A DNA stretch of 64,000 bases from contig NZ_QRGP01000001.1 of NCBI RefSeq assembly GCF_003367235.1, positions 1 to 64,000 on the forward strand, written 5' to 3'. The notes under the pieces were generated by a model. It saw only the letters and a program-made list of their open reading frames with translations, had not been told where the DNA came from and searched no databases. Below are positions 334-15,150 of this stretch, piece after piece; position 1 is the first letter of the stretch, and every line of letters begins with the position of its first letter. Source of the DNA: Sphingorhabdus pulchriflava (GTDB taxonomy: Bacteria; Pseudomonadota; Alphaproteobacteria; Sphingomonadales; Sphingomonadaceae). A program made the translations under genes and the position numbers.

Positions 334-2472
334 CTATGCCGCTTTGAAGCGTTTCGACAGAAAGGCCGGAATTTCGCTCAAGGGCATCTCGGGCGACGAA
401 TTGCCGCTGCGAACATACAGCCGCTCATAGCCGACGCCGTTCTTGTCCTTACCGGACACGATGATTGCAGCATCTGACGGACGGACCTCGATCTTGCAGA
501 TTTCGACGCCAGCCACCTCGGGAAAGCTGATCTTCAGTTTCCCCGCCGTGAAATTCTGGCCGAAGGCTTGTGCGAACAAATTTCGCAAATGGATCTCGAA
601 ACGATCCCGGTCGGCGTCGCCAAGGCAAGCGAAATCCTGCTCCAGCCCCACCGCGTCGCCGCTGTCGGCCACGCCAATCAGCAAGGTGCCCCCATCGAAG
701 CTGTTGCCGAAGGCCGCAATGGTCTTGACGACCACTGCCTCAAGTTCCTTGTTCACCCGGCCTTCGTTCACGTCCCAGCGCAGGGTTTGCTTAAACTCCA
801 GCTCTTCGCTTTCACCCTCGCTGATCATTTCCTCAAGTGTGATGGGCACGTCGCCGACGGCTAGATCGGTAATCGAACTCAGGAATCCATTGAGTTCGGA
901 AGCCAGCATTTCGCGCCGCCTCTCAAGGAAGCGTTCGTAGTTTTCTAGTTTCCACAGTTCGGGATCATCTGGAATGCACTGACGCGCCAGCGAGTCCGGA
1001 TTCTTGGCAGCGATTTCTGCGAGGTAGTCCTCCGCATTGGTCGCGCTTTTCGTCCGGTTGGCGATCTGCGTCAGAATCGCCCGGTTGGTGATTTCTTGCG
1101 CGAGCGCGTATTTGATCCGATTATCGGTTCCGTATCCGGCGGCCTTGAGCTTCGAGAACGGGAAAATATGATCGTTCTCCAGCGCGTATTTCTTGCCCAT
1201 CGACTGCGAGAGCTTGATGCCGGTCGTGAAGCAGGTCGCGCCTTTGCTTTTGAAATACCAGCGCATCATTGGGTAGAGCGGATGCGAAATCGCTCTTCCG
1301 ACAAACTCGTCCGGGCTGATTTCCAGCGTCCTCTCGTCCTTGATGATTTGCAACAGATCATCGAACGGCTGGGTTGAATCCTTGACGACCTTGAGATCGC
1401 GGTCGAGCTTCTGCGGTAGCTGGCTGACGTAGCGTGTCCGGATTTGCGCGTAATAGAACCACTTGACCAGTTTCTTGATCTGCAAGCCGGTCAGATGCCC
1501 GTCCTGCTGGAAGCAGTAGGTAATGATCGGAATCAGCGCGTAGATCGAGTTCACCTCATCGGTGTGGTCGATGAAGGCGTGCGACTGCATGATGTTGGCG
1601 ACATAATCGAGCGTCTGCGATTCCAGCTTTTTCCAGGCCTCCTGAATCGGCCCGTCATTCTTCTGGTCATGCAGGAAGTGCATGTTCGAGCCGGAGTGAT
1701 AGAGACAGGCGAGCAGGGCATAGACGATGAAATCGAGCTTGAAGGTGTATCCGCGCTTTTCCAGTTCGGTCAGCTTCGCCTTGAAAATGTCGCGGGCCTG
1801 CGGCCAGTATCCGGAAATCTGCGCCAGGGCCAACTCCGCCTCGGTCAAGGAAACGCCGCTGGCGTTCACCTTGTAGAAGATGTCGATGGCCTCGCGTATG
1901 CTGGCCTTCACAGGAATGGTCTGTTCGGGGAACTCCCGGTCGAGGATGTTCTCGATCGACTTCACATTGTCGTCGATCAGGTCGTCGCGCTCGCGCGGAA
2001 CCTCCTCGCCCCTGTCCTCCAGCGAGCGGACAACATCCTTGGCGCGAACCTTGCGTTGAAAAATATCGGTCAGATTTTGCCAGCGCGGGTCATTCTCCAT
2101 CTTGAGCTTCTTGTAATACTCCAGCTCTCGCGTTTCGACGTTCACATAGAGACCGCGCGTGTCATTGAGGATTTCGGGAGCGGTATAATAGGGCGGCAGG
2201 TCTCCGCGAATGAGCATATAGAGCGTCGTCAACCGCTGCTGTCCGTCCAGCAGTATCCTGACCGCCCCCTGCTTCTCGTTGTATTTGTGCGGTCCCTTCA
2301 ATTCCGGTGGCGTGTTGGTTTCCCAGGTCAGCATGGTGCCGGTCGGATATTCCTTGATCAGCGAATCCACGAGCTGCTTGGCATCGTCGCGCTTCCAGAC
2401 GTATTCGCGCTGGAACGCCGGGACGAAGAGCTGCTTTTCGTCGATCTTGTCGAGGGCCTGAGATATCTTCAC
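334..2472 (-). CDS. DUF262/HNH protein fused to AlbA_2 (Schlafen-like) domain
   Basis: A 712-residue protein. The N-terminus is a DUF262 (GmrS-type) domain with the FQREYVWK segment near residues 20-27 and the diagnostic DGQQR at 76-80; in this family that motif belongs to a ParB/Srx-like nucleotide-binding fold. Around residue 435 the ENDHIFPFSK segment, followed by an Asn-rich NRAILT/NRTKS region, matches the DUF1524 His-Me (HNH) nuclease. From about residue 552 an ELEFKQTLRWD start and GGTLLIGVAD match an AlbA_2/Schlafen-like putative DNA-binding domain. DUF262-DUF1524 proteins include modification-dependent restriction enzymes (GmrSD) and SspE; the C-terminal AlbA_2 is an extra. It is the last gene of the leftward operon, 3 bp after the helicase stop. 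Role as a defence effector is inferred. Confidence 0.85.
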   Translation of the reverse strand: MKISQALDKIDEKQLFVPAFQREYVWKRDDAKQLVDSLIKEYPTGTMLTWETNTPPELKGPHKYNEKQGAVRILLDGQQRLTTLYMLIRGDLPPYYTAPEILNDTRGLYVNVETRELEYYKKLKMENDPRWQNLTDIFQRKVRAKDVVRSLEDRGEEVPRERDDLIDDNVKSIENILDREFPEQTIPVKASIREAIDIFYKVNASGVSLTEAELALAQISGYWPQARDIFKAKLTELEKRGYTFKLDFIVYALLACLYHSGSNMHFLHDQKNDGPIQEAWKKLESQTLDYVANIMQSHAFIDHTDEVNSIYALIPIITYCFQQDGHLTGLQIKKLVKWFYYAQIRTRYVSQLPQKLDRDLKVVKDSTQPFDDLLQIIKDERTLEISPDEFVGRAISHPLYPMMRWYFKSKGATCFTTGIKLSQSMGKKYALENDHIFPFSKLKAAGYGTDNRIKYALAQEITNRAILTQIANRTKSATNAEDYLAEIAAKNPDSLARQCIPDDPELWKLENYERFLERRREMLASELNGFLSSITDLAVGDVPITLEEMISEGESEELEFKQTLRWDVNEGRVNKELEAVVVKTIAAFGNSFDGGTLLIGVADSGDAVGLEQDFACLGDADRDRFEIHLRNLFAQAFGQNFTAGKLKISFPEVAGVEICKIEVRPSDAAIIVSGKDKNGVGYERLYVRSGNSSPEMPLSEIPAFLSKRFKAA

Positions 2473-2475
2473 CGG

Positions 2476-5400
2476 TTAATCCTTTAGTTCCTGTTCCTGC
2501 CTCACGCCGCCAATCCGGCGATGCAGCCCTACCCCGACATTTTCGACGAGGCCGCGGGCGTAAAGCGAATTGCTGCGGCCAATTCGGGTCAGCGCATTAT
2601 TGACGAGCTCTTCCCATTTTTCTTCGCGGGGACGCGACGGAGACCGCTTCCGATCGCCCGGTGTCAGCGCAATCAATTCCGGTATCCGCGCCTTCAACTG
2701 CGCATTGGTCCAAATTTGGCCATCACTCATAAGTTGGAGAATAGCGTCCTGAACCTGTGCCTCCGTTGTTCGCAACTGGTCGGTTGCTGGCCCAATCTGG
2801 GGACTCAGCGGGAGGTTGCCTTCTTCGACCGGAACGTCGGTGATCGTCAGTGTGCGAGTGGCCGATTCTGAAGCTGGCTCATCGGCCAACGTAATTGGCG
2901 TATCTTGCCCATCACCGCCGGCTTCGATCAGGTCTTCCCCAAAGCCGACCGAGCTCCATTCCTTGTATTCGGTGTAGACCGTAGATCGCCGACCTGCCGC
3001 TCTGGGCTTGATGTCCATCGAGTCAAGGAGCGTGCACAGTTCGTCGAGGACAGCTTGGCTTTCGCGCACAAAGCGCGAGGCAAAACAGCGCCAGAAGCGC
3101 CACCCGGCGCGTTCGAGTGTTCGCTGGCGCTGCATATCCGCAGGCCATTGTTCCGGTCCGTGGTAGCGGTCACCGTCACATTCGATGGCGAGCCGACGAT
3201 CATCATCGCCTTCGACCACTATGTCGATGCGATGCTGACCGACCCGTACCTGAGTATCAAGAGTATATCCCCGGTCATGCAAGGCATCGAAAATCTCGCG
3301 CTCGAAGTCAGATTCACAGCGCAGCCGGGCATCTGCCGCTTCGTCGGTGTCGTTCGGGAAAGGCGAGCGGAAATGCTCGAGCAAGGCACGGCGAAGTTTA
3401 TCGGCGGGACTAAGCTGCTCAAGCTCGATCGATCGAACAAGAATCATCCTTTCGCGCGCACGGGACGCTGCCACGTTGAAGCGTTGCTCGAAGGCCAGCC
3501 CACTCAACGCCGATGCATTGCCGGGCGTTGCGACCATCGAAAGGAACATGATGTCCCGTTCGTCGCCCTGGAAGGTCGCAGGGTCGCCGACCCGCACCCG
3601 ATATTTTTCGATGAAGGGTATGCCGAGATCGTTCTCGATCCGGCTATAGATCAACGCTGCTTGGTCGGTTCCCAACAGCGTCGTCACACCAATGCTCCGC
3701 CCGTCAAATGATGGATCGTCGGCGATACACCGCAATTCCTCAATGACGTAATCGGCTTCAGGCGGGTTGGTCTTGCTGCGTCCCTTGCGATAGCCATCAA
3801 CCACGAGAACATCGGACAGAACAGGATCGAGGCGCTCCGAAGCTTTGGAAAGACGCAACGGGCAAAGCTCGTTGCGGTAGAATTGGCGCTTCGAAAATTC
3901 AATGATCGGCGCAGCGCATCGGAAATGCTCGCGCAACATGAAACGATCAGCCCCAAAGATGACGCTCGCCAGGTCATACAGCGAGCTTTCCTGACGCATC
4001 GGTTCGATGAACAGCGGCACCTGCATTGAAAGGAAGCGCGTCGCCAGCGCATTCGACTGTTCCATGTTCAGGCCGACATTGTCCGGGCTGACCTGCTTGT
4101 CGTCTCCAACAACGAGTATCTGCTTTGCCCGGAACAATGCAGGAAGCGCTGACAGCGTCGATTGCGACGCCTCATCAACAATCACCAGATCGAAGATGCC
4201 GAGTTCGGCCGGAAGGGACTCCGAGACGCGGCTATGGGGCATGATCCAGCAAGGCAATGCGCTCTTGACGGCATCTGCCGCGTTGCGCGCCGTTTTACGA
4301 TGACGATTTGCGCTCTTGCCGGTTCCGCGCCCGATCTTGCCCACCGCAACTGCATAAGCGGCCAACGCTTGCATGACGCTGGGCGAAGCTTTTTCCTTCA
4401 GCGCCCGCCATGTCCGCTGTTCAATCGTGCGAATGTAAGTCTTTGAAAGGTCGGCCTCGGCCTGCTCTCGCTGCTTGTGGAGTTGCCGCAATCGTGCCGA
4501 TTGGTTCGATTCCTCAAGCCAGCGGTCAAGTCGGCGCAACCGCCAGCGTTGCCGCCAATCGCCGGGACACAATAGGTCGACAGCGCCCGCCGGCGTCGAC
4601 AAAAGCTGCGCTGCCCATAGTGGAGCGCCGCTATCCTTGATCTGGCCCGATATGGTGCGAATCGTCTCCCAATGCTGTTGCAACCCATGCAAATGGGCGA
4701 TCCTTGCGGAACTGCGCGAGACTTCCGCCGCCAACACCTGCCGGGTCAAAACCTGTTCGCCTATACGTGCGGCCAAGGTGCGGACATCTTCATGAATGGC
4801 TGTATCGCCTCGACCAACGGATTGAAGCAGCGATTTACGCATCGACCGAGCTGTCTGGAGCCCGGCCAGTTCGAGGTGAACGTGAAGGCAGTCGAGGACG
4901 TCAGCGGGATCTGAGTGTTGATCGATCGGTCCACGCCAACGCGGCATCAAAGTCCGAACCTCGTGGGTCAGGCGCTCGGCATCGGTGATGAGCACCGAGA
5001 GCGCATCTAGGCGGTCTAGCAGCTTCAAGGCATCGCGCCCCGCCGCCGTGCCAGTCGCCGTGATCGCAGGCAAACCCGTCCCGGAGCAAGCGTGGTTCCA
5101 ACTCTGCACAAAGCTGTGCGCTCGATCAGTCGCATCAATGAAGCGGGCGATGGCTTGCCAATCGCTGGCCAGCGATGGAGCCTTACCTTTGAGCCTGACT
5201 GCCGCGATATGGATTTTTGTCGTGCGGGCGAACAGACCGGCAAGCGCACCCAAACCTGTCCCGCCTTCAGCCAGATCGGTCACGCTTGTCCTGAAACGCG
5301 GATCATCAAGACAATTGTCAGACAGCACGACAGGTCGGGTCAGAAAGAAGCGCTGATCCTCCTCCAACGCACTGGCTTCATCGCGGAGCTGAAGCAAGGC

Positions 5401-7893
5401 TTCGCGTATGGGAGCACCTGCCGGGTCCATGAGGTCCACAAGGGCCGAGTCGAGCGGACTTGAAGACCTGTCGAGGTCGAGACGACGCTGATTCCACGCA
5501 GAAAGCTGCTTTTCGGTGGACTCCGCTAAAGCGATTGTTTGTGACTGTGTGTCCCGCAGCCGCCAAACCCCGCCATCGGCAATCGTCTGCTCAATGCTCG
5601 CCGCCTTTTGCAAGCTGTCATGTGCTGCAAGAATGGCATCGACATCGGCCAACAAGTCGAGCGGGGGAAGCGTCTTGCCAAGATAGCAGAGGTCATCGCC
5701 AACGGCTTGGCGCGCAGCGCGCAATGAGGCGACATCTTCATCGTTGAAACGGGGTTCAAAATCGCTCGCCGGGCCTATGGCATCCGGCAACCATGTCGCA
5801 TTCTCCCCCGCAGCCAAAACTTCGCGCGCGGCTTCGAGCGGTTCAATCCTTTGCCCGTCCATTTCCAGTTTGGAGAGCGCCGCACGACCGATTTGTTCGG
5901 TTTCGCGATCATTCGCGGCGAGCTGGCGATGCAGACCGTCGATCTTGGCCTCAAGGCTCGCGATCTCCGCGTCGAGCTCTGATTTACGCAGATGCTGAAG
6001 CCGCTCGGAGATGAGATCAACCGATCCGCGAAACTGGCGAAGGCCCTCGCGGTCGCTATCCAGCAGGCTCACGGCCAGCGGGCGGATTTGCGCAGGAAGC
6101 TGGTCCTGTAGCACCCGAAGCGCGGGCGACTTCTGTGATGTCACCAGCACCCGCCGCCCGGTTGCCAGATAGTGGCTGATGATATTGGCAATGGTGTGGG
6201 TCTTGCCGGTTCCCGGCGGCCCTTGCACGACAACGCCATCTCGCACTGCGAGGCGCTGCGCGATCTGGACCTGTTCGGCATTGAAAGGCTTCGGGAAGAA
6301 CAGCTCTTCGCCTGACCCGTCAGAAGAAGTGGCGCCGGGGATGCTATTGATCCCCCGAAATGTCGGGAAATCCTCATTCTGCAACTCGCGGGACGGGTTA
6401 GTGAACAGCGCGGCGATGGCGGGCGGGATATCAATCTTGCCTTCGCTGCTTTCCAGCAAATCGCGAAACGCGAGCAAGTCGGCCATCAACTGAGTGGCGC
6501 GCCGCTCTCGCTGAAGGAAAGCGAAACCGTCGGTGATGCGCAGTTCCCCGCCGGGCACCGGAAGCGGAAGCGAACTCCCATCTTCGCCACGGGCATATTG
6601 CGCACCGGGGTCGAGCAAGGCAGCTGCATTTTGCAGAATCGGCTCGAAGGTTGAACGAACGAATGGAGAGAGAGAATCGTCGTCGAGTTCCTCGATGTGG
6701 CGCATCGCCTGCCTGCGCCACACATCCACCTGAACGAGCCCAAGGGCATCGAGAGGGTCCGCTTCCACACCGGGGCGGGCCTCGGCCCTCGGAATGAGCG
6801 AAATAACGTGGCTGACTGATTCGAGTTCTATGTCCAGCGGGATTGTCAGAAGCGGATAAAGCAGCCGCTTGCCCGAGCGGAACAAACCCGCATAGCCAAG
6901 ACCACAGACCAGTTCCTGCGGAATGCCATCGGGCGCGGCAAGCGCCTGACGCAATGCGAACAGCGCGCTATAAAAACCTATCGTCTTGCGGCGCGGAACT
7001 TCAATCTCGGCCCATTCGGCCCAAGGTCCTGCGATGTATGCCGCAAGGCCGTCGCGCAGCGCATCGGCTTCGGCATAGTCGTCGAGATCAAGTCCGGCAG
7101 CTTCATCGTCCAAGACGATTTCTGCGGCCTTGCATTCGGCAGCCGACAGCCGTTCGCGCAGTCGAGGTTCACGGGCGGGGTCGTCGGACAGTACCAACCA
7201 CGCCTTCAAAAGCTGGCCCGCCGGTTCTGGCGGCGGTTTTCGGTTGAGGCGTTCAACCGTCAGGAATGCAACGTCCTCACCCGATGCCCGGTTGAACGCA
7301 ATGCCGGGCAATGCCGCCAATTCATCATGCGTGCGGTGGAGCGCGCGGTGATCGGCAACATCGGTGACGAGCTTAAGTTTGTCCTTCTCGACCGCAATGA
7401 CATAGTCGATCAGATCGAGCATCCGTGAAAGGACAAGTGGATCGGCCGCATCGACCGTTTGGGAAGGTGCAGCGGACATCGAACTCCGATCAATCTTTGC
7501 AGCCGGTTCTGCCTCTTCGGGCGTCGGCGCGACCTCTTCAGCAATCGGGATCACCTGGGCGCGATCTTCAGGTTCCGGCTCTGGCTCGATTTCCAGCTTG
7601 GCTCTGAGCGCATCAAGTCTGTTGCGGCGAGGATTGCGGGTCGGCGAATGGTCAGCGCCCAGCGCCGATGTTTCAGGCAATGCAGAAGGCGCAACCGGTT
7701 GGAGCGAAAGCTGAAGCTCAAGGCCGTCGAGAATGGATGTGATCTTTGCACGGAGGCGATGGGCACGATCGGTATCGCGATGGTGCAGCTCGGCGGCAAT
7801 GATTTCCAGCCGCTGCCGGTCAAGACGATGCTGCTCGACCAGCTGTTCAAGCTGGGCAATCGAATCCTGAAAATGCGGCCGCCCACCACTCAT
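2476..7893 (-). CDS. Large SF1 (DNA2/UPF1-type) helicase with C-terminal MTES_1575/Vsr-like nuclease
   Basis: A 1805-residue protein. Walker A GPPGTGKTHT lies near residue 560, and the helicase is split by a long insertion before Walker B (VIVDEAS, about 1238) and the GDDKQVSP motif III. The late motifs include FQGDERDIMFLS and FNVAASRARERMILV, typical of SF1B UPF1/DNA2 helicases. At about residues 1510-1600 a DFEREIF start, an RIDIVV...LAIECDGD core and a WRFWRC end fit the REase_MTES_1575 (Vsr/DUF559-like) nuclease. The last ~100 residues look like a winged-helix domain. The N-terminal 550 residues are unassigned. It overlaps the methyltransferase stop by 4 bp (ATGA), so the two are probably translationally coupled. 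A DNA-unwinding nuclease in a restriction-like defence system is the likely role. Confidence 0.85.
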   Translation of the reverse strand: MSGGRPHFQDSIAQLEQLVEQHRLDRQRLEIIAAELHHRDTDRAHRLRAKITSILDGLELQLSLQPVAPSALPETSALGADHSPTRNPRRNRLDALRAKLEIEPEPEPEDRAQVIPIAEEVAPTPEEAEPAAKIDRSSMSAAPSQTVDAADPLVLSRMLDLIDYVIAVEKDKLKLVTDVADHRALHRTHDELAALPGIAFNRASGEDVAFLTVERLNRKPPPEPAGQLLKAWLVLSDDPAREPRLRERLSAAECKAAEIVLDDEAAGLDLDDYAEADALRDGLAAYIAGPWAEWAEIEVPRRKTIGFYSALFALRQALAAPDGIPQELVCGLGYAGLFRSGKRLLYPLLTIPLDIELESVSHVISLIPRAEARPGVEADPLDALGLVQVDVWRRQAMRHIEELDDDSLSPFVRSTFEPILQNAAALLDPGAQYARGEDGSSLPLPVPGGELRITDGFAFLQRERRATQLMADLLAFRDLLESSEGKIDIPPAIAALFTNPSRELQNEDFPTFRGINSIPGATSSDGSGEELFFPKPFNAEQVQIAQRLAVRDGVVVQGPPGTGKTHTIANIISHYLATGRRVLVTSQKSPALRVLQDQLPAQIRPLAVSLLDSDREGLRQFRGSVDLISERLQHLRKSELDAEIASLEAKIDGLHRQLAANDRETEQIGRAALSKLEMDGQRIEPLEAAREVLAAGENATWLPDAIGPASDFEPRFNDEDVASLRAARQAVGDDLCYLGKTLPPLDLLADVDAILAAHDSLQKAASIEQTIADGGVWRLRDTQSQTIALAESTEKQLSAWNQRRLDLDRSSSPLDSALVDLMDPAGAPIREALLQLRDEASALEEDQRFFLTRPVVLSDNCLDDPRFRTSVTDLAEGGTGLGALAGLFARTTKIHIAAVRLKGKAPSLASDWQAIARFIDATDRAHSFVQSWNHACSGTGLPAITATGTAAGRDALKLLDRLDALSVLITDAERLTHEVRTLMPRWRGPIDQHSDPADVLDCLHVHLELAGLQTARSMRKSLLQSVGRGDTAIHEDVRTLAARIGEQVLTRQVLAAEVSRSSARIAHLHGLQQHWETIRTISGQIKDSGAPLWAAQLLSTPAGAVDLLCPGDWRQRWRLRRLDRWLEESNQSARLRQLHKQREQAEADLSKTYIRTIEQRTWRALKEKASPSVMQALAAYAVAVGKIGRGTGKSANRHRKTARNAADAVKSALPCWIMPHSRVSESLPAELGIFDLVIVDEASQSTLSALPALFRAKQILVVGDDKQVSPDNVGLNMEQSNALATRFLSMQVPLFIEPMRQESSLYDLASVIFGADRFMLREHFRCAAPIIEFSKRQFYRNELCPLRLSKASERLDPVLSDVLVVDGYRKGRSKTNPPEADYVIEELRCIADDPSFDGRSIGVTTLLGTDQAALIYSRIENDLGIPFIEKYRVRVGDPATFQGDERDIMFLSMVATPGNASALSGLAFEQRFNVAASRARERMILVRSIELEQLSPADKLRRALLEHFRSPFPNDTDEAADARLRCESDFEREIFDALHDRGYTLDTQVRVGQHRIDIVVEGDDDRRLAIECDGDRYHGPEQWPADMQRQRTLERAGWRFWRCFASRFVRESQAVLDELCTLLDSMDIKPRAAGRRSTVYTEYKEWSSVGFGEDLIEAGGDGQDTPITLADEPASESATRTLTITDVPVEEGNLPLSPQIGPATDQLRTTEAQVQDAILQLMSDGQIWTNAQLKARIPELIALTPGDRKRSPSRPREEKWEELVNNALTRIGRSNSLYARGLVENVGVGLHRRIGGVRQEQELKD

Positions 7894-10800
7894 GCCGCAA
7901 ACCGCCCGTCGGCGAGTTTGCGGGCCTGCCCGATGGCTGCCAGAGCATCCAGCACCGGGGTAACGCCCTTGGCGTTGGTGCCTTTGATGGCGCGGGCGAT
8001 TTCGTTGGGGTGTTGCGGGGTCTGCGAAGCGGCGAGGATTGCGGCGACGGTGCTGACTTGCTCCGCCAGAGTTTTTGGCCAGGGGATGATTGTCGCGGGC
8101 GCGGCGGCGGGGGTGTCGCCAAGGTCGAGGGTAGCGTTGACTTGGGGGGCCGCGGCACCGGGCGACTGGAACTCGGGGCGGAGCCAGCGGATTTGGCCTT
8201 TGGCCTCCTCGGCGGCGCGAACCTTGTTCAGCGCCACGAGGCGGGTGAGAATGTCTTCGTCAGAGAGATCGGCAGGCCAGCCATAGGCTTCGGCGACGGC
8301 GCTATCTATGGCGTCGTGATGCTGGCGGATCAGCGTCACCAGCCCGCGATCATGCACGTCGCGCTCCTTGTCAGTCAGCGCACGGCCTGCTTTTAGCGCC
8401 TCCAGCACATTGTAGAGGCCGGTCAGGGTCAGATCGTCATGCGCGGTCAGCACCTGCTTACGCAGCGCGTCGAGCGCCTCGGCCTCGGCGCGGATGCGGG
8501 CTTTGAGCGGTTCGGGGACATCTGCCGGGAAGGGAAATGGATCAAAGCAGCGGCTTTTCACATAGACCGGATCGTCGCCCATCCCGAGCCGCCCACCGCT
8601 TTCAATGGCCCAAGGGACGTGGAAGCGACTGGACAGAACACCAAGAAAATAGGCGTCGTCCAAGGCGATGCAGGCCAACTTGTTATCCGGCAAGATCGAC
8701 ATGGGCAGGAACTGGAAGACACGATGCTTGGCGGTTTCGATGGTGGCGATGTATCGCGTTACACCTGCCAGTGCGCGGCGCAGTTCGGAGCGGGGTTCGC
8801 CGAACAGCCACCAATTGTCACGATAGCTGGCGCGGTTGTTCTGCTCGCGGTGCGGCTTAACCGTAGTCGCAACATGCTGATAGACCGCCGGATAGCGATC
8901 CCGCATTTGCGCTTCGCTCAAGCCGTAAAGGTCAATCACCTTCACCCCACGCGGATGCGAGGCAAGATCGCGACCGTTGCGATAATCGAAGATCACCGCT
9001 TCATTCCCGTCTGTGCCGGTGCGAATGTAGGCTGGTTGCGGGCCAGTGATTTGAACCTGCGAAAGCGCGTCCGCCTGCTCGGGCGTGACGATGAAGCCGT
9101 CGCCATGAAGTTTGACACCCGGCGAGCAAAGGCCCTCGTTCGCATTCAACGCCATTGTCGATGTCACGTCCGCGCCAATGCGAAGATCGGGGCCGATCAG
9201 GCCGATGTTGATACCGAACGTGACAGTCTGCGGTGCATCGCTTTCATCCAAAACAGTTTGCATCATGCCGGACTCGCGGCCTGACCTTGCTTGCGGTTCC
9301 GCCACAGTCATGGCGATACGCACCGCTGCACCGTCCTTCTCGTCCACCCAAGGGTGATTGGGGATGGCGAAGCGCAGGCTGACACCAGCTTTTGCGTCAA
9401 GATGCCTGGCGATCACCCGGCGACTGAATACTTGCGTGATGCTGTTAGTGGTGACGAAGCCGAAACGGCGGGTCTTTTCCTTGCGCGTGGCAAGCGCCGC
9501 CTTGTCCCACCAGTGCATGACAAAATCGGCGGATTCGGGAACATCGGTGGTCTTGAACAGGGCATCGAAATATCCGTCGCCCAAGCGTTCGCGCACATCC
9601 TTGCCGCCTATGAAGGGCGGATTGCCGACGATAAAGGTGGCCTTGGGCCATTTCGCCGCCTTGGGCGCGACATACCGCTCGACCTCCACCCGCGCATCCT
9701 CATCGGGAACCTTCTTGCCGGTGACAGGATGCAGCTTCATCGTCTCGCCGTCCCAGCGGGTGAGCGGCTTGCCATGCTCGTCCCGCTCCAGCACCTTCTT
9801 GTCCCAAGTGATCAAGGCATCACGGTTCTCGATGGTCTTCACGTCGCGCAGCACAGGTTCGGGCGGCACTTTGCCTTCGCCGTTCACCCTGAAATGCCAT
9901 TGCAGATAGCCGATCCACAGCACGAGTTGGGCAATCGCCGCCGCGCGCGGGTTAATCTCTATACCGAGGAAGTTTTCGGGCGTGATGGTGTGACCGCTCA
10001 GCTCCGCAACGGTCTGCTTTTCGCCTTCAGGCGCGAGTTCGGCGAGCCGCCCGATCACTTCGCCCTCCAGCTCCTTCATCCGCGCGAGCGCAACATAGAG
10101 GAAGTTGCCGGTGCCGCAGGCGGGATCGAGCACTTTGGTCTGCGCGAGTTGCGCGTGGAACTTCTCGATGACAGCGTGCGCCTCATCCGCCTTGCCCGCC
10201 TCGATTAACTGGCCAGCGGCGGCCTGCACCCCCGCCCAGTCGGCGCGCAGGGGCTCCATGATCGTGGGCATGACCAGCCGTTCCACATAGGCGCGCGGCG
10301 TATAATGCGCGCCGAGCTTGGCGCGTTCCTTGCCGTCAAGCGCGCGTTCAAGCAGGGTGCCGAAGATCGCGGGTTCGACATGGTTCCACTTGTGCGTCGC
10401 CGCCTCGATCAACAGGCCGATCTCGTCGGCATTGAGTGCAATCGCAGTGGTATCCTTGAACAGATAGCCGTTGAAACGCAGCACGGTTTCACCAGCCTCG
10501 CCAAGAACGCCTGCCAGTCCGCCCTTGTCCATCGCGTGCCACAGCGATGACAGGTTCGGCGCGAAATTCTCCGGGCGCTTCTGCATCCGGGTGAGGAAGT
10601 TCGTGAAGCTGCCTTCGGGGATGAGCTGCACATCCTCGGCAAACATCGTGAACAGGCAGCGCATCAGAAAATCGGCAACGCGGGTGGGGTTCTGCTCGCG
10701 CTTTTCGAGCCGCTTGGACAGTTCGGCGAGATGCCCCGCAATCTCGCGGGTGACGCGCGCGGCTTCCTTCGATGGATCGAGGCTGAGCGGGTCGGTCCAG

Positions 10801-11411
10801 ATTGTGGAAAGACGGGCGCGGACATCTTCGCTCCGCAGATCGTCCAGCGCGATGCGGAAGCGGGCGGCATCGGGGAACTGGGTGTATTGCTTCCCCGTCC
10901 CGCTGAAATCGGCATAGACGTCGATGCAGTGGCCAACGTCGGTGACAAGCAGAAAGGGAGGCCAGCCGTGGTCGATCGGCAGCGCCTTGGCATAGCGTTC
11001 AGCTTGGCCGCGTGCTTCGACCATCGCTTTCGACCAGGTGGGTGTGCCGCGTTTCGCCGTGCCGCGCTTGAAGCGGGCGGCGGCGGTCTGGCCGAAAATA
11101 TCAAGGTCTGCTTCGCCCTGTTCGGCGGCCTTGCGGTCTGCATCGCTACCCTGTTTGGCTTCGAGCACGAAGCAATGGCGCTTGTAGGCGTCTATTCGCC
11201 CAAAGCTCTCAGTGCCATCGGCTTCCTTCTGGAACACCCGACGCTCAAACACATAGTCATTGTGGGTATCGTCGGTGCGGCTGCCCTTTGGCGGATCAAC
11301 ACCGATCAGCGCGCACAGGCCGTTGACGAAACTCTGCGTGTTCGCCAGCTCGGAGCCGCCGGTCAGCGCCCATTCGGCAATGAAGGATTCGAGTTTGTTG
11401 TTATCTGACAC
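7890..11411 (-). CDS. Type IIG-like restriction nuclease / adenine DNA methyltransferase
   Basis: A 1173-residue protein with an N-terminal PD-(D/E)XK signature (D74, then E84-A-K86 in FVLEAK), a helical spacer, and an amino-methyltransferase with SAM motif I DPACGTGNF (429-437) and catalytic motif IV NPPF (597-600). NPPF places it with N6-adenine enzymes. The C-terminal 400 residues would hold target recognition. Overall order (nuclease, spacer, MTase, recognition) is that of MmeI-like single-chain restriction-modification enzymes, though such MTases also occur in BREX/DISARM-type systems. It starts 57 bp after the fic stop and overlaps the helicase gene by 4 bp, so cleavage and DNA translocation may be shared between the two proteins. 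Recognition sequence cannot be read from the protein. Confidence 0.85.
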   Translation of the reverse strand: MSDNNKLESFIAEWALTGGSELANTQSFVNGLCALIGVDPPKGSRTDDTHNDYVFERRVFQKEADGTESFGRIDAYKRHCFVLEAKQGSDADRKAAEQGEADLDIFGQTAAARFKRGTAKRGTPTWSKAMVEARGQAERYAKALPIDHGWPPFLLVTDVGHCIDVYADFSGTGKQYTQFPDAARFRIALDDLRSEDVRARLSTIWTDPLSLDPSKEAARVTREIAGHLAELSKRLEKREQNPTRVADFLMRCLFTMFAEDVQLIPEGSFTNFLTRMQKRPENFAPNLSSLWHAMDKGGLAGVLGEAGETVLRFNGYLFKDTTAIALNADEIGLLIEAATHKWNHVEPAIFGTLLERALDGKERAKLGAHYTPRAYVERLVMPTIMEPLRADWAGVQAAAGQLIEAGKADEAHAVIEKFHAQLAQTKVLDPACGTGNFLYVALARMKELEGEVIGRLAELAPEGEKQTVAELSGHTITPENFLGIEINPRAAAIAQLVLWIGYLQWHFRVNGEGKVPPEPVLRDVKTIENRDALITWDKKVLERDEHGKPLTRWDGETMKLHPVTGKKVPDEDARVEVERYVAPKAAKWPKATFIVGNPPFIGGKDVRERLGDGYFDALFKTTDVPESADFVMHWWDKAALATRKEKTRRFGFVTTNSITQVFSRRVIARHLDAKAGVSLRFAIPNHPWVDEKDGAAVRIAMTVAEPQARSGRESGMMQTVLDESDAPQTVTFGINIGLIGPDLRIGADVTSTMALNANEGLCSPGVKLHGDGFIVTPEQADALSQVQITGPQPAYIRTGTDGNEAVIFDYRNGRDLASHPRGVKVIDLYGLSEAQMRDRYPAVYQHVATTVKPHREQNNRASYRDNWWLFGEPRSELRRALAGVTRYIATIETAKHRVFQFLPMSILPDNKLACIALDDAYFLGVLSSRFHVPWAIESGGRLGMGDDPVYVKSRCFDPFPFPADVPEPLKARIRAEAEALDALRKQVLTAHDDLTLTGLYNVLEALKAGRALTDKERDVHDRGLVTLIRQHHDAIDSAVAEAYGWPADLSDEDILTRLVALNKVRAAEEAKGQIRWLRPEFQSPGAAAPQVNATLDLGDTPAAAPATIIPWPKTLAEQVSTVAAILAASQTPQHPNEIARAIKGTNAKGVTPVLDALAAIGQARKLADGRFAA

Positions 11412-11468: not shown

Positions 11469-12590
11469 TCATTTGGAATCAACATCCTCGTCAACTGCTA
11501 GCCGATACCGCGCATAGCGTCGCTCGCCAGTGCGGATCAGCGCGCCTTTCTCGACAAGATCGCCCAAATCGCGGGTCGCCGTGGCAAGCGCAGCCCCTGT
11601 GATCGTCCGGTAATTCCCAGCGCTCAACCCGCCCTCAAACCCGTCCGGCCCTTCGCGGAACAAGCGCAACAACGCCTTTTCCTGCCGTTCGTTGATTTGT
11701 CCGCGCAAGCGATCGAGCAGACGGGTCTTGTCGATCAGGAAGCGGATGCGGGCGATCGTCCGCGCCTGCGCCTCGATCACAATATCGGCAAACCATGTCA
11801 GCCAGGCATCAATATCGTTGCTCTGGCTGCCAAGCTGGAGCGCGGCGTAATAGGCTTTGCGGTGGCGATTGATCGTCTCCGCAAGCGCCGTCAGGGTTGG
11901 GGCTGCAAGGTTCTGCGCCAATGCCTTTTCCGCAATCGCCCGCCCGATCCGGCCATTACCATCCTCAAAAGGATGGATGCTCTCGAACCACAAGTGCGAG
12001 ATTGCGGCACGGGTGATCGCCGGAAGCGGGTTCGCTGACGCCGGTGCGCTATCATTGAACCACGCGATGAAGCGGGTCATTTCCATCGTAACGGTCTCGG
12101 ACGGCGGTGCCTCGAAATGGACGCGCGGCGCATGGAGCGCGCCCGAAACGATCTGCATGGCGTCCTCATGCGTCCGGTAGCGCCCGACATCGGCAATGTC
12201 GCGGCGTCCGTTCATCAACATCGCGTGCCACGCAAACAGAGTCTGGTCGTCGAGAGGTGCTGCATGGTTGCGATAAACATCTGCCATGAGTTCCGCAGCC
12301 CCGGCCTCTGCCGCACTGGCGCGGCGCGAATCCGTGGCAAAGCCCAGATGCCGTGCGAGCGACGACTGGACGCTAGCACGGTCGAGGATTTCGCCCTCGA
12401 TGGCAGAGCTATCGACCACTTCTTGCGATATGAGTTCGATGGTCAGGCCGCCGCGCTCGTCGGCGTCAAGATGGTGCAGTGCGCCAATGACGACGCCTGA
12501 ACCTTTCAGGAATTGCTCTTCGGACGCACGGATGCGGTCCGCGTCGAAGCGGAAATCAGGCCAGTCGGGAAGTTGCCAATTCCAGCGCAT
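11469..12590 (-). CDS. Fic family protein with DUF4172 N-terminal domain
   Basis: A 373-residue protein. The Fic core HPFEDGNGRIGR (206-217) has every catalytic element of AMP-transferring Fic enzymes. An N-terminal inhibitory helix motif S61-x3-E65-G66 fits the [S/T]xxxE[G/N] consensus of class II, self-inhibited Fic proteins. The first ~80 residues (RWNWQLPDWPDF...) match DUF4172. The C-terminal ~90 residues contain a winged-helix-like segment, common in such proteins and compatible with DNA binding or autoregulation. The gene heads the accessory operon and is preceded by a strong inverted repeat. Whether it is a toxin, a regulator of the downstream restriction genes or an independent cargo gene cannot be told. 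Confidence 0.9.
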   Translation of the reverse strand: MRWNWQLPDWPDFRFDADRIRASEEQFLKGSGVVIGALHHLDADERGGLTIELISQEVVDSSAIEGEILDRASVQSSLARHLGFATDSRRASAAEAGAAELMADVYRNHAAPLDDQTLFAWHAMLMNGRRDIADVGRYRTHEDAMQIVSGALHAPRVHFEAPPSETVTMEMTRFIAWFNDSAPASANPLPAITRAAISHLWFESIHPFEDGNGRIGRAIAEKALAQNLAAPTLTALAETINRHRKAYYAALQLGSQSNDIDAWLTWFADIVIEAQARTIARIRFLIDKTRLLDRLRGQINERQEKALLRLFREGPDGFEGGLSAGNYRTITGAALATATRDLGDLVEKGALIRTGERRYARYRLAVDEDVDSK

Positions 12591-12856: not shown

Positions 12857-13182
12857 TGGTGCGGACGGGGGGACTTGAACCCCCAAGGGCAATGCCCGAC
12901 GGATTTTCTTACCCGCTACGGTTTTCACCGCCGCCCGCCACCCTTGATCGGGCTGGGGCGTTTGGAGTCTGGACTATCCCTTCACCGTGCCACGGCAAGC
13001 CGTGGGTTAGGTGCTGCCCGTCTAGTCTCTACACCTTCCGTAGCGCTTTCGCGCTGCGGCTTGGCTCGGGATTGCCAGTTGAGAGGTTTCCCCGAATTTG
13101 AGCAGTTCTGCATCGCAGGTTTCCCCGCGAGCACTCAAGTTTGGTCTAAGTCCGTTGCGTCTACCGATTTCGCCACGTCCGC
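12857..13182 (-). tRNA. tRNA-Leu(UAA) interrupted by a group I intron
   Basis: Exon 1 is 13148-13182 (reads GCGGACGTGG... to ...ACGGACTT) and exon 2 is 12857-12907 (starts AAAATCCGT, ends CGTCCGCACCA with encoded CCA). Joined, they give an 86-nt class II tRNA: a 7-bp acceptor stem GCGGACG/CGTCCGC, an anticodon stem ACGGA/TCCGT with loop CTTAAAA (anticodon UAA), a long variable arm GTCGGGCATTGCCC and a GGGGG-TTCAAGT-CCCCC T-arm. The gene is interrupted after U34, the same position used by the cyanobacterial and plastid tRNA-Leu(UAA) introns. Standard bacterial tRNA finders may miss it. Confidence 0.9.
12908..13147 (-). ncRNA. Group I self-splicing intron (IC3-like, 240 nt, no ORF)
   Basis: Between the tRNA exons the minus strand carries a group I core. 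P4/P5 and P6 lie in TTCGGGGAAACC and GGCAATCCCGAGCCAAGCC (about 13059-13106). The guanosine site is GGTGTAGAGACTAGACGG (13017-13034), and the matching P7 3' strand GATAGTCC lies near 12972. A CCACGG-loop-CCGTGG hairpin (12990-13005) fits P8. The 3' end is the expected terminal G (12908). Exon 1 ends in U, and ACUU can pair with GAGU at intron positions 12-15, giving the U-G wobble needed at the 5' splice site (P1). No homing endonuclease is encoded. Splicing is predicted to be autocatalytic. Confidence 0.88.
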
Positions 13183-14627: not shown

Positions 14628-14668
14628 GATTTTAAGTCTGTTGCGTCTACCGGTTTCGCCACGTCCGC
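14628..14668 (-). repeat. Truncated intronless tRNA-Leu 5' half (att repeat)
   Basis: The last 35 bases match exon 1 of the intact tRNA-Leu (13148-13182) at 33 of 35 positions. The match continues through GATTTT, which is what follows in an intron-free tRNA-Leu(UAA) anticodon loop (loop CTTAAAA), then stops. The copy has no 3' half and cannot be functional. It reads as the stub left in the host chromosome after site-specific recombination in the anticodon loop. Confidence 0.75.
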
Positions 14669-14745: not shown

Positions 14746-15024
14746 CTATTTGTTCAGGCGCTCGCGGATTTCCTTGCCCGGCTTGAAATAGGGAACGCGT
14801 TTTGCCGGAACATCGACTGCGGAACCAGTACGCGGATTGCGCCCCTTGCGCGGTTGACGCTCACGGGTTGAAAACGCCCCAAAACCGCGAATTTCAACAC
14901 GGCCACCGTCGGCGAGCCGCTGAATGATCTGGTTGAAAAACAGATCGACGATGCGTTCAACCTCTTCGCCCGTCATGCCGGGATTTTCGGCTTCCAGCTT
15001 TTTAACCAGTTCAGATCGGATCAT
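14746..15024 (-). CDS. ihfB: Integration host factor subunit beta
   Basis: A 92-residue HU/IHF-family protein. It begins [10 protein letters not shown], has the DNA-bending arm with RNPRTG and ends with [14 protein letters not shown], the typical C-terminal helix. The start at 15024 is chosen because GGAGG lies 8 bp upstream and it gives the family length; a start 57 bp further upstream would add an unusual tail. IHF beta pairs with IHF alpha (encoded elsewhere) to bend DNA in replication, transcription and site-specific recombination. Gene order ihfB downstream of rpsA is usual in proteobacteria, and this marks the return to core chromosome after the recombinase region. Confidence 0.93.
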
Positions 15025-15150
15025 GGCCCATGCCTCCACCGTTGACCGGCCCCAAACGGACTCGGTTTTGCCCCTCGACATCGCAGATGGTGACAGAAAA
15101 GCCTCACGCTTACAATGGCATTATGTCGATTTGTAAAATCGAACCGCCAC

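Follow-up and report, generated by a model that had tools for sequence, protein, structure and literature searches.

A group I intron in the replacement tRNA-Leu(UAA) gene carried by an apparent integrative and conjugative element of Sphingorhabdus pulchriflava

Organization of the locus

The window (the whole stretch of 64,000 nucleotides of Sphingorhabdus pulchriflava DNA that was analysed) contains an intact tRNA-Leu(UAA) gene interrupted by a group I intron, an integrase gene, the 5' half of a further tRNA-Leu(UAA) gene and several cargo genes of a mobile element, the coordinates of which are collected in Table 1. The intron-bearing gene was reported by ARAGORN when run with its intron option (tRNA-Leu (taa) at L001 c[1399,1724], with a 240-nt intron from tRNA nucleotide 36), the insertion point lying directly 3' of U34 in the anticodon loop. 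It was overlooked by ARAGORN run without that option, and annotation programs that ignore introns would overlook such genes.

Table 1. Features of the window and of the associated contigs of the same genome (G000)
Feature	Position	Strand	Basis or remark
Replacement tRNA-Leu(UAA) gene	12857..13182	(-)	Intron-aware ARAGORN and tRNA inventory
5' exon, 35 nt, ending ...ACGGACTT after U34	13148..13182	(-)	
Group I intron, 240 nt	12908..13147	(-)	RF00028, homologues, covariation
3' exon, 51 nt, starting AAAATCCG..., CCA encoded	12857..12907	(-)	
Tyrosine-recombinase-type integrase, 426 aa	13237..14517	(-)	Phage_int_SAM_3
attL: 5' half (41 nt) of cut resident tRNA-Leu(UAA), ending in core ACTTAAAATC	14628..14668	(-)	
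10-bp core ACTTAAAATC, common to attL and attR	14628..14637	(-)	attR = G000:C3:335151-335160
ihfB, flanks intact tRNA-Leu(UAA) in relatives	14746..15081	(-)	Pfam Bac_DNA_binding and synteny, from which the gene name is inferred
Fic-domain protein, element cargo	11469..12590	(-)	
MmeI-like type IIG restriction-modification enzyme, element cargo	7890..11411	(-)	
Helicase/REase_MTES_1575 defence-like protein, element cargo	2476..7893	(-)	
GmrSD N-terminal and Schlafen AlbA_2 protein, element cargo	334..2334	(-)	
Second element, cuts tRNA-Leu(CAA)	G000:C2:668903-686594 and G000:C1:2126778-2155120		About 46 kb if the contigs abut

The insert begins with AGACC and ends with GGTAAG, and matches the Rfam group I model over its full length (RF00028, model positions 1-253, E 1.5e-8) with a score of 42.6 bits, which falls below the curated cut-off of 50 bits; eight matched intron homologues lie on both sides of that cut-off, four above it (50.6 to 66 bits) and four below (38.9 to 45.5 bits). 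There is no other RF00028 match in the whole genome. When the introns of 30 chosen relatives were aligned, the core proved mostly invariant, with no variation at all in the terminal G or in the two strands of P7 (GACTA/TAGTC). Covariation was evident in 26 of the 59 base pairs drawn by RNAalifold, each having at least one sequence that is altered on both sides with pairing retained; this program cannot draw the P3/P7 pseudoknot, and its pairing of the exon with one P7 strand was taken as an artefact. At the 5' splice site, as judged by eye from the alignment, the exon end ...ACTT lies opposite GAGT of the intron, with U facing G. A conserved core recognized by the covariance model, U opposite G at the 5' site, a terminal G and a paired P7 together mark the insert as a group I intron, and a spurious intron was ruled out by the covariance match, the homologues and the covariation. 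As a member of this family the intron would be expected to splice itself out, and the mature tRNA is predicted to have an anticodon loop of the usual form. Its 240 nt leave no room for a homing endonuclease gene. Weak Rfam matches over the gene (LOOT, mascRNA and tmRNA) were taken as chance or tRNA-like overlap. The first-pass annotation of this DNA had proposed a complete tRNA-Leu(UAA) split after U34, a group I intron of 240 nt, the P7 pairing and the terminal G, and all of these are borne out.

The same annotation had raised the possibility that another intact tRNA-Leu(UAA) serves the cell, and this was rejected on the tRNA inventory. A search of the genome, assembled in six contigs and given by the assessment tool as 99.99% complete, with RF00005 produced 42 matches, 41 of them above the cut-off; in these 41, ARAGORN recognized only the leucine anticodons CAA, UAG, CAG and GAG and hence no second intact UAA gene, and the 42nd match is the 3' exon of the window's gene with the adjoining intron. 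As the sole copy found, the window's gene would be essential to a cell carrying the integrated element. For UAA and CAA alike, the one intact tRNA-Leu gene found lies within an element, and the two elements share one integrase family.

The gene order in relatives with an intact locus is ihfB, tRNA-Leu(UAA), lipoprotein gene. In the window, ihfB is followed by the first 41 nt of tRNA-Leu(UAA) alone, the sequence after ...CAGACTTAAAATC being foreign. The 3' half of the resident gene was found on a separate contig, C3, where it runs from ACTTAAAATC at 335160 down to 335106 and is followed by the lipoprotein gene that comes after the intact tRNA gene in all four relatives compared (74-76% identity). 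Half genes are present at both junctions, and attL and attR have only the 10-bp ACTTAAAATC in common. On the sequence of these junctions, one resident tRNA-Leu(UAA) gene is cut in its anticodon loop, and as a core of 10 bp is too short for it, the gene is not rebuilt by the element. A half-gene present by chance was rejected, since the same order recurs in relatives and host synteny is kept on both sides. We give scarcely any credence to the reading in which the window's tRNA gene is an ordinary resident one with an intron, the integrase gene and half-gene nearby being there by chance or as relics of some other element: resident intron-bearing UAA genes at the ihfB locus are indeed common in the family, but here ihfB is followed by the cut 5' half, then by the integrase gene and only then by the intron-bearing gene, an order seen again in named relatives, and the 3' half and its host neighbour are elsewhere.

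Two other genomes show departures from the usual arrangement. In G001, a different integrase-like ORF adjoins an intact tRNA-Leu(UAA) gene, and a displaced 3' half lies on a separate contig (L113 and L114, on C97 and C128), apparently a conventional element at the same tRNA locus whose integrase rebuilds the gene. The lipoprotein gene was also looked for behind resident intron-bearing genes, as its presence there might betray a collapsed element; in G005, of the same genus as the window, an intron-bearing UAA gene stands behind ihfB (L035) and the usual lipoprotein gene is about 90 kb off, which is open to several readings.

The integrase gene adjoins attL on one side and is separated from the intact intron-bearing tRNA gene by 54 bp on the other. 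Residues R266, K298, R362, H363 and Y394 of the protein, which we take to be catalytic, are invariant in 15 aligned sequences. The element runs off the edge of contig C1 and would measure about 52 kb if C1 abuts the end of C3. In that case it has, over the two contigs, type IV secretion genes and genes for a coupling protein, a relaxase, copper resistance and an RND pump, with the type IIG restriction enzyme, the Fic protein and two more defence-like proteins as further cargo; judged by these genes, it is an apparent integrative and conjugative element that would be capable of conjugation. Capsid, tail and terminase families were absent from the Pfam matches of the 23 ORFs scanned, out of 41 of at least 90 aa in the element, and only three of 40 pattern matches in viral contigs code for an integrase relative; given the conjugation genes and the few relatives in viral contigs, a prophage is held unlikely on this coverage of the ORFs.

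The same genome holds a second integrase gene, at C2:669021, the product of which is 87% identical to that of the window. It lies between the 5' half of a tRNA-Leu(CAA) gene and an intact tRNA-Leu(CAA) gene, and the matching 3' half is at C1:2126778. The CAA replacement of this second element is without an intron, and its loop reads ATTCAAAATC as against ACTCAAAATC in the cut gene.

Introns in related elements and in resident genes

A scan of named genomes with the 15 aligned integrases gave 534 relatives, the best 80 of which were classified by target and replacement gene; within this set the closest named relatives of the window's integrase come from Sphingopyxis, Sphingomonas and other Sphingomonadales. 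Among the best 80, a UAA-type cut gene was found in 20 loci, 19 of them showing the replacement and the other, L213, ending before it, and one additional locus (L237) has a UAA replacement with an unrecognized left half. All 20 legible UAA replacements in this set have the intron, the match in L202 being weak (32.9 bits). The same was true of the UAA replacements in the family sample (6/6: G000, G056, G147, G256, G267 and G318), in the genus (2/2: G016 C25 and G022) and in the class sample (6/6: G345, G435, G450, G658, whose contig ends inside its replacement, G701 and G716). Counting the window, all 34 UAA-type loci with a legible replacement have the intron. In 28 of them the cut left half was found as well; the UAA type of L237, G318, G022, G345, G450 and G701 rests on the replacement, G022 showing the right half as well. 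A further class sample was searched for an intronless UAA replacement, which would have been a counter-example, and none turned up among the loci read. Of L132, L146, L148, L153, L155, L156, L161 and L163-L165, whose neighbouring ORFs were listed, L155 was the one locus subsequently linked to an integrase.

In contrast, an intron was present in none of the 42 legible CAA, Ser or UAG replacements among the best 80 of 534 relatives. In that set, 31 of the 43 CAA-type loci have a CAA replacement that lies in the same direction and lacks an intron, 12 have none in the stretch examined, one additional locus shows a CAA replacement alone, eight Ser and two Leu(UAG) genes behind the integrase are all without an intron, and five loci, L174 included, yielded neither cut gene nor replacement. 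These figures bear on a use of the intron at the RNA level, whereby splicing would couple tRNA supply to the state of the cell or the precursor would evade anticodon nucleases. The presence of the intron is by itself in keeping with such regulation; however, the usual anticodon loop predicted for the mature tRNA and the lack of introns from legible CAA, Ser and UAG replacements speak against it, and we regard it as improbable.

More informative is a comparison with resident UAA genes, for which the frequency of the intron is a lower bound, counted in one family only. RF00028 matched in 29 of 298 family genomes and, in various tRNA genes, in 31 of 385 class genomes, and an intron-bearing UAA gene occupies the resident place just behind ihfB in at least 20 of the 298; all three counts are lower bounds, as the large searches use stricter filters, under which a control was matched in two of 14 known genomes as against four in a single-genome search and the copy at the contig end in G658 was missed. 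The presence of a tRNA-Leu intron outside the cyanobacteria, put forward as a surprise by the first-pass annotation, is thus no rarity in this family, and a gammaproteobacterial tRNA-Leu(UAA) intron was reportedly published by Vepritskiy et al. in 2002. That annotation was right about the gene, the split site, the intron and its sphingomonad-like setting, as well as about the relevance of the case to intron transfer, and wrong about its rarity; it missed the role of the gene as the replacement carried by a mobile element.

In a quick tree of 97 integrases, from which the fragments L256, L167 and L034 were left out, the window's integrase is nested among those of CAA type, and the UAA label needs 12 changes, at least nine of them on supported branches. 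When pairs on separate branches were compared (29 UAA and 46 other rows), target and intron differed together in seven of seven (sign test, p 0.016); L213, 13 non-UAA loci in which the replacement was not legible and those loci whose type was Lys or unknown were left out of this comparison. The test is limited, since an intron of this kind needs U34, which in part predetermines the contrast with CAA genes. From the 34 UAA-type loci, 33 introns were extracted; L208, L210 and L211 have the same one, which leaves 31 distinct. The intron tree (61 sequences), in which support is often weak and the bootstrap unsettled, was made without L048, L211 and those introns whose ends were not located. In this tree, 31 element-borne and 21 resident introns are intermixed, the element-borne label needing 13 changes with at least five on supported branches, and a single clade holds 12 of the 31, the replacements being related in part by descent. 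The intron of the window falls into one group with the introns of G016 and G022 (84/61 support), although the integrase of G016 sits in a distant part of the integrase tree (the fragmentary integrase of G022 has 98% identity to the one in L086), which makes it probable that the tRNA cassette has passed from one integrase lineage to another.

Such swapping of cassettes, together with an exon context (CGGACTT before the intron and AAAATCCG after it) that is common to most intron-bearing genes, resident or element-borne, would be expected if an early UAA-type element had taken up an intron-bearing gene by chance and the cassette had then spread among integrase lineages with the intron being of no use. 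We consider hitchhiking of this kind possible but doubtful, because the intermixing of element-borne and resident introns, with its supported label changes, points to several captures, and because intronless UAA replacements are absent from all 34 legible loci when the resident intron was found in at least 20 of 298 genomes.

The masking hypothesis and known systems

Our working hypothesis, which we think slightly more probable than its negation, is that the element replaces the tRNA gene that it has cut, and that the intron in the core of the replacement hides it from the integrase and is spliced out in the RNA. Going by the junctions, the tyrosine integrase would have placed the element within the anticodon loop of the sole resident tRNA-Leu(UAA) gene. 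As the only intact copy is the one carried just behind the integrase gene, the resident gene would be lost and the cell would live on the carried gene. The intron lies between U34 and A35, inside the core, and would split the attachment sequence in the DNA; in the window's replacement only ACTTA of the core is contiguous on the left of the intron. A replacement with a split core would be unusable as a target for its own integrase or that of an incoming relative, whereas use of an unmasked replacement as a target would mean that the integrase gene was deleted or the last working gene broken. In the RNA, the intron would splice itself out to leave a normal tRNA. Masking would then be not only an effect of the intron but the reason for its retention, and elements of this kind may carry introns between genomes.

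The spread and persistence of small tRNA introns without a homing endonuclease have long been debated, and here a vehicle, in the form of tRNA-replacing elements, and a possible benefit, in the form of a split attachment core, appear together. We tentatively suggest, as an idea whose correctness we rather doubt, that group I introns of the anticodon loop shield bacterial tRNA genes from integrases, and that tRNA-replacing elements select intron-bearing replacements, carry them across species and leave them resident after recombination between the replacement and the flanking halves. If this were true, tRNA introns lacking an endonuclease would gain both a benefit and a vehicle.

What is new here is that an intron splits the core of the replacement tRNA gene; the layout itself is known from the tRNA-dependent lysogeny of actinobacteriophages (Guerrero-Bustamante and Hatfull 2024, PMC10865867). 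In the available part of that paper, a tyrosine integrase acts on a tRNA gene through a core of about 10 bp, the gene is not rebuilt, the phage encodes a tRNA of the same isotype (phage Gaia, with an 8-bp core, being the tRNA-Leu-CAA case), and the authors call for checks in other groups. The present element resembles those phages in having its integrase gene beside att, a 10-bp core, a target gene that is not rebuilt, a carried tRNA of the same isotype and no other intact copy found, but unlike them it is an apparent conjugative element of the Alphaproteobacteria with a UAA replacement whose group I intron splits the core; in the text of that paper, 'group i' does not occur and 'intron' occurs once. 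Integration of the tRNA-dependent kind, described in actinobacterial phages, is thereby extended to the Alphaproteobacteria and to what appears to be a conjugative element.

The idea that an intron may protect a tRNA gene is shared with Sugahara et al. (2012; PMC3293823), who, in the portion of the article available and citing Randau and Soll (2008), put forward the idea that an archaeal tRNA intron protects attB and that it is to the advantage of a mobile element to bring the intron with it. The case described in that portion is one environmental archaeal intron gained through the att site, whereas here a bacterial group I intron is found in many elements and in a separate replacement gene. 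According to the accessible sections of two reports on Sinorhizobium meliloti prophages (PMC11476347, PMC12429752), a host tRNA gene is sometimes substituted by the incoming one, and phiLM21-like prophages have tRNA-Leu(UAA) among the sites used and the tRNA gene is rebuilt; alphaproteobacterial hosts and tRNA substitution are thus held in common, but those elements are phage-related, and the word 'intron' is absent from both texts. The introns of cyanobacterial tRNA-Leu(UAA) genes, likened here by description, have the same gene, position after U34 and conserved core, and differ from the present ones, which are borne by mobile elements. Within the titles and abstract beginnings returned by a literature search that covered few subscription journals, no paper linked group I introns of bacteria to replacement tRNAs carried by mobile elements.

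CAA-type elements and other relatives

Among the best 80 of 534 relatives, CAA-type elements have U32 in 28 of 32 replacements and C32 in 43 of 43 cut genes. Four replacements retain C32, and the gene cut in L082 has U32 at the left junction. In L174 (on the contig of L074 and L112), the replacement has U32 and is itself interrupted immediately after ATTCAAAATC. As two U32 genes (L082 and L174) have been cut, U32 is not a reliable protection and the parallel between the CAA-type elements and masking by an intron is weak. The CAA-type element of L174 is inserted at a GACTCAAAATC core outside any recognizable tRNA gene, possibly reflecting a secondary site and a second insertion event.

The CAA-type loci with a cut gene and no legible same-direction replacement in the stretch examined include L206, L212, L222, L223, L225, L235, L241, L249 (a damaged copy) and L252 (a copy in the other direction); in these, the cell may be able to do without tRNA-Leu(CAA) as long as UAA remains, or the replacement may lie farther off. 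Upstream of the integrase gene of L089 there are two differing 5' halves of tRNA-Leu(UAA) in tandem, as if two insertions were stacked. The tRNA genes directly behind the integrase gene are tRNA-Ser (UGA or CGA) in L229, L236, L240, L242, L244-L246 and L251 and tRNA-Leu(UAG) in L232 and L248. A permuted tmRNA match (RF04321, 119 bits, and also beta_tmRNA) was found at L202:1042-1357, on a contig labelled Nevskia. Integrase relatives in L280 (G345), L272, L273 and L276-L278 adjoin tRNA-Met, and in L280 an intact tRNA-Met gene is present on both sides of the integrase gene.
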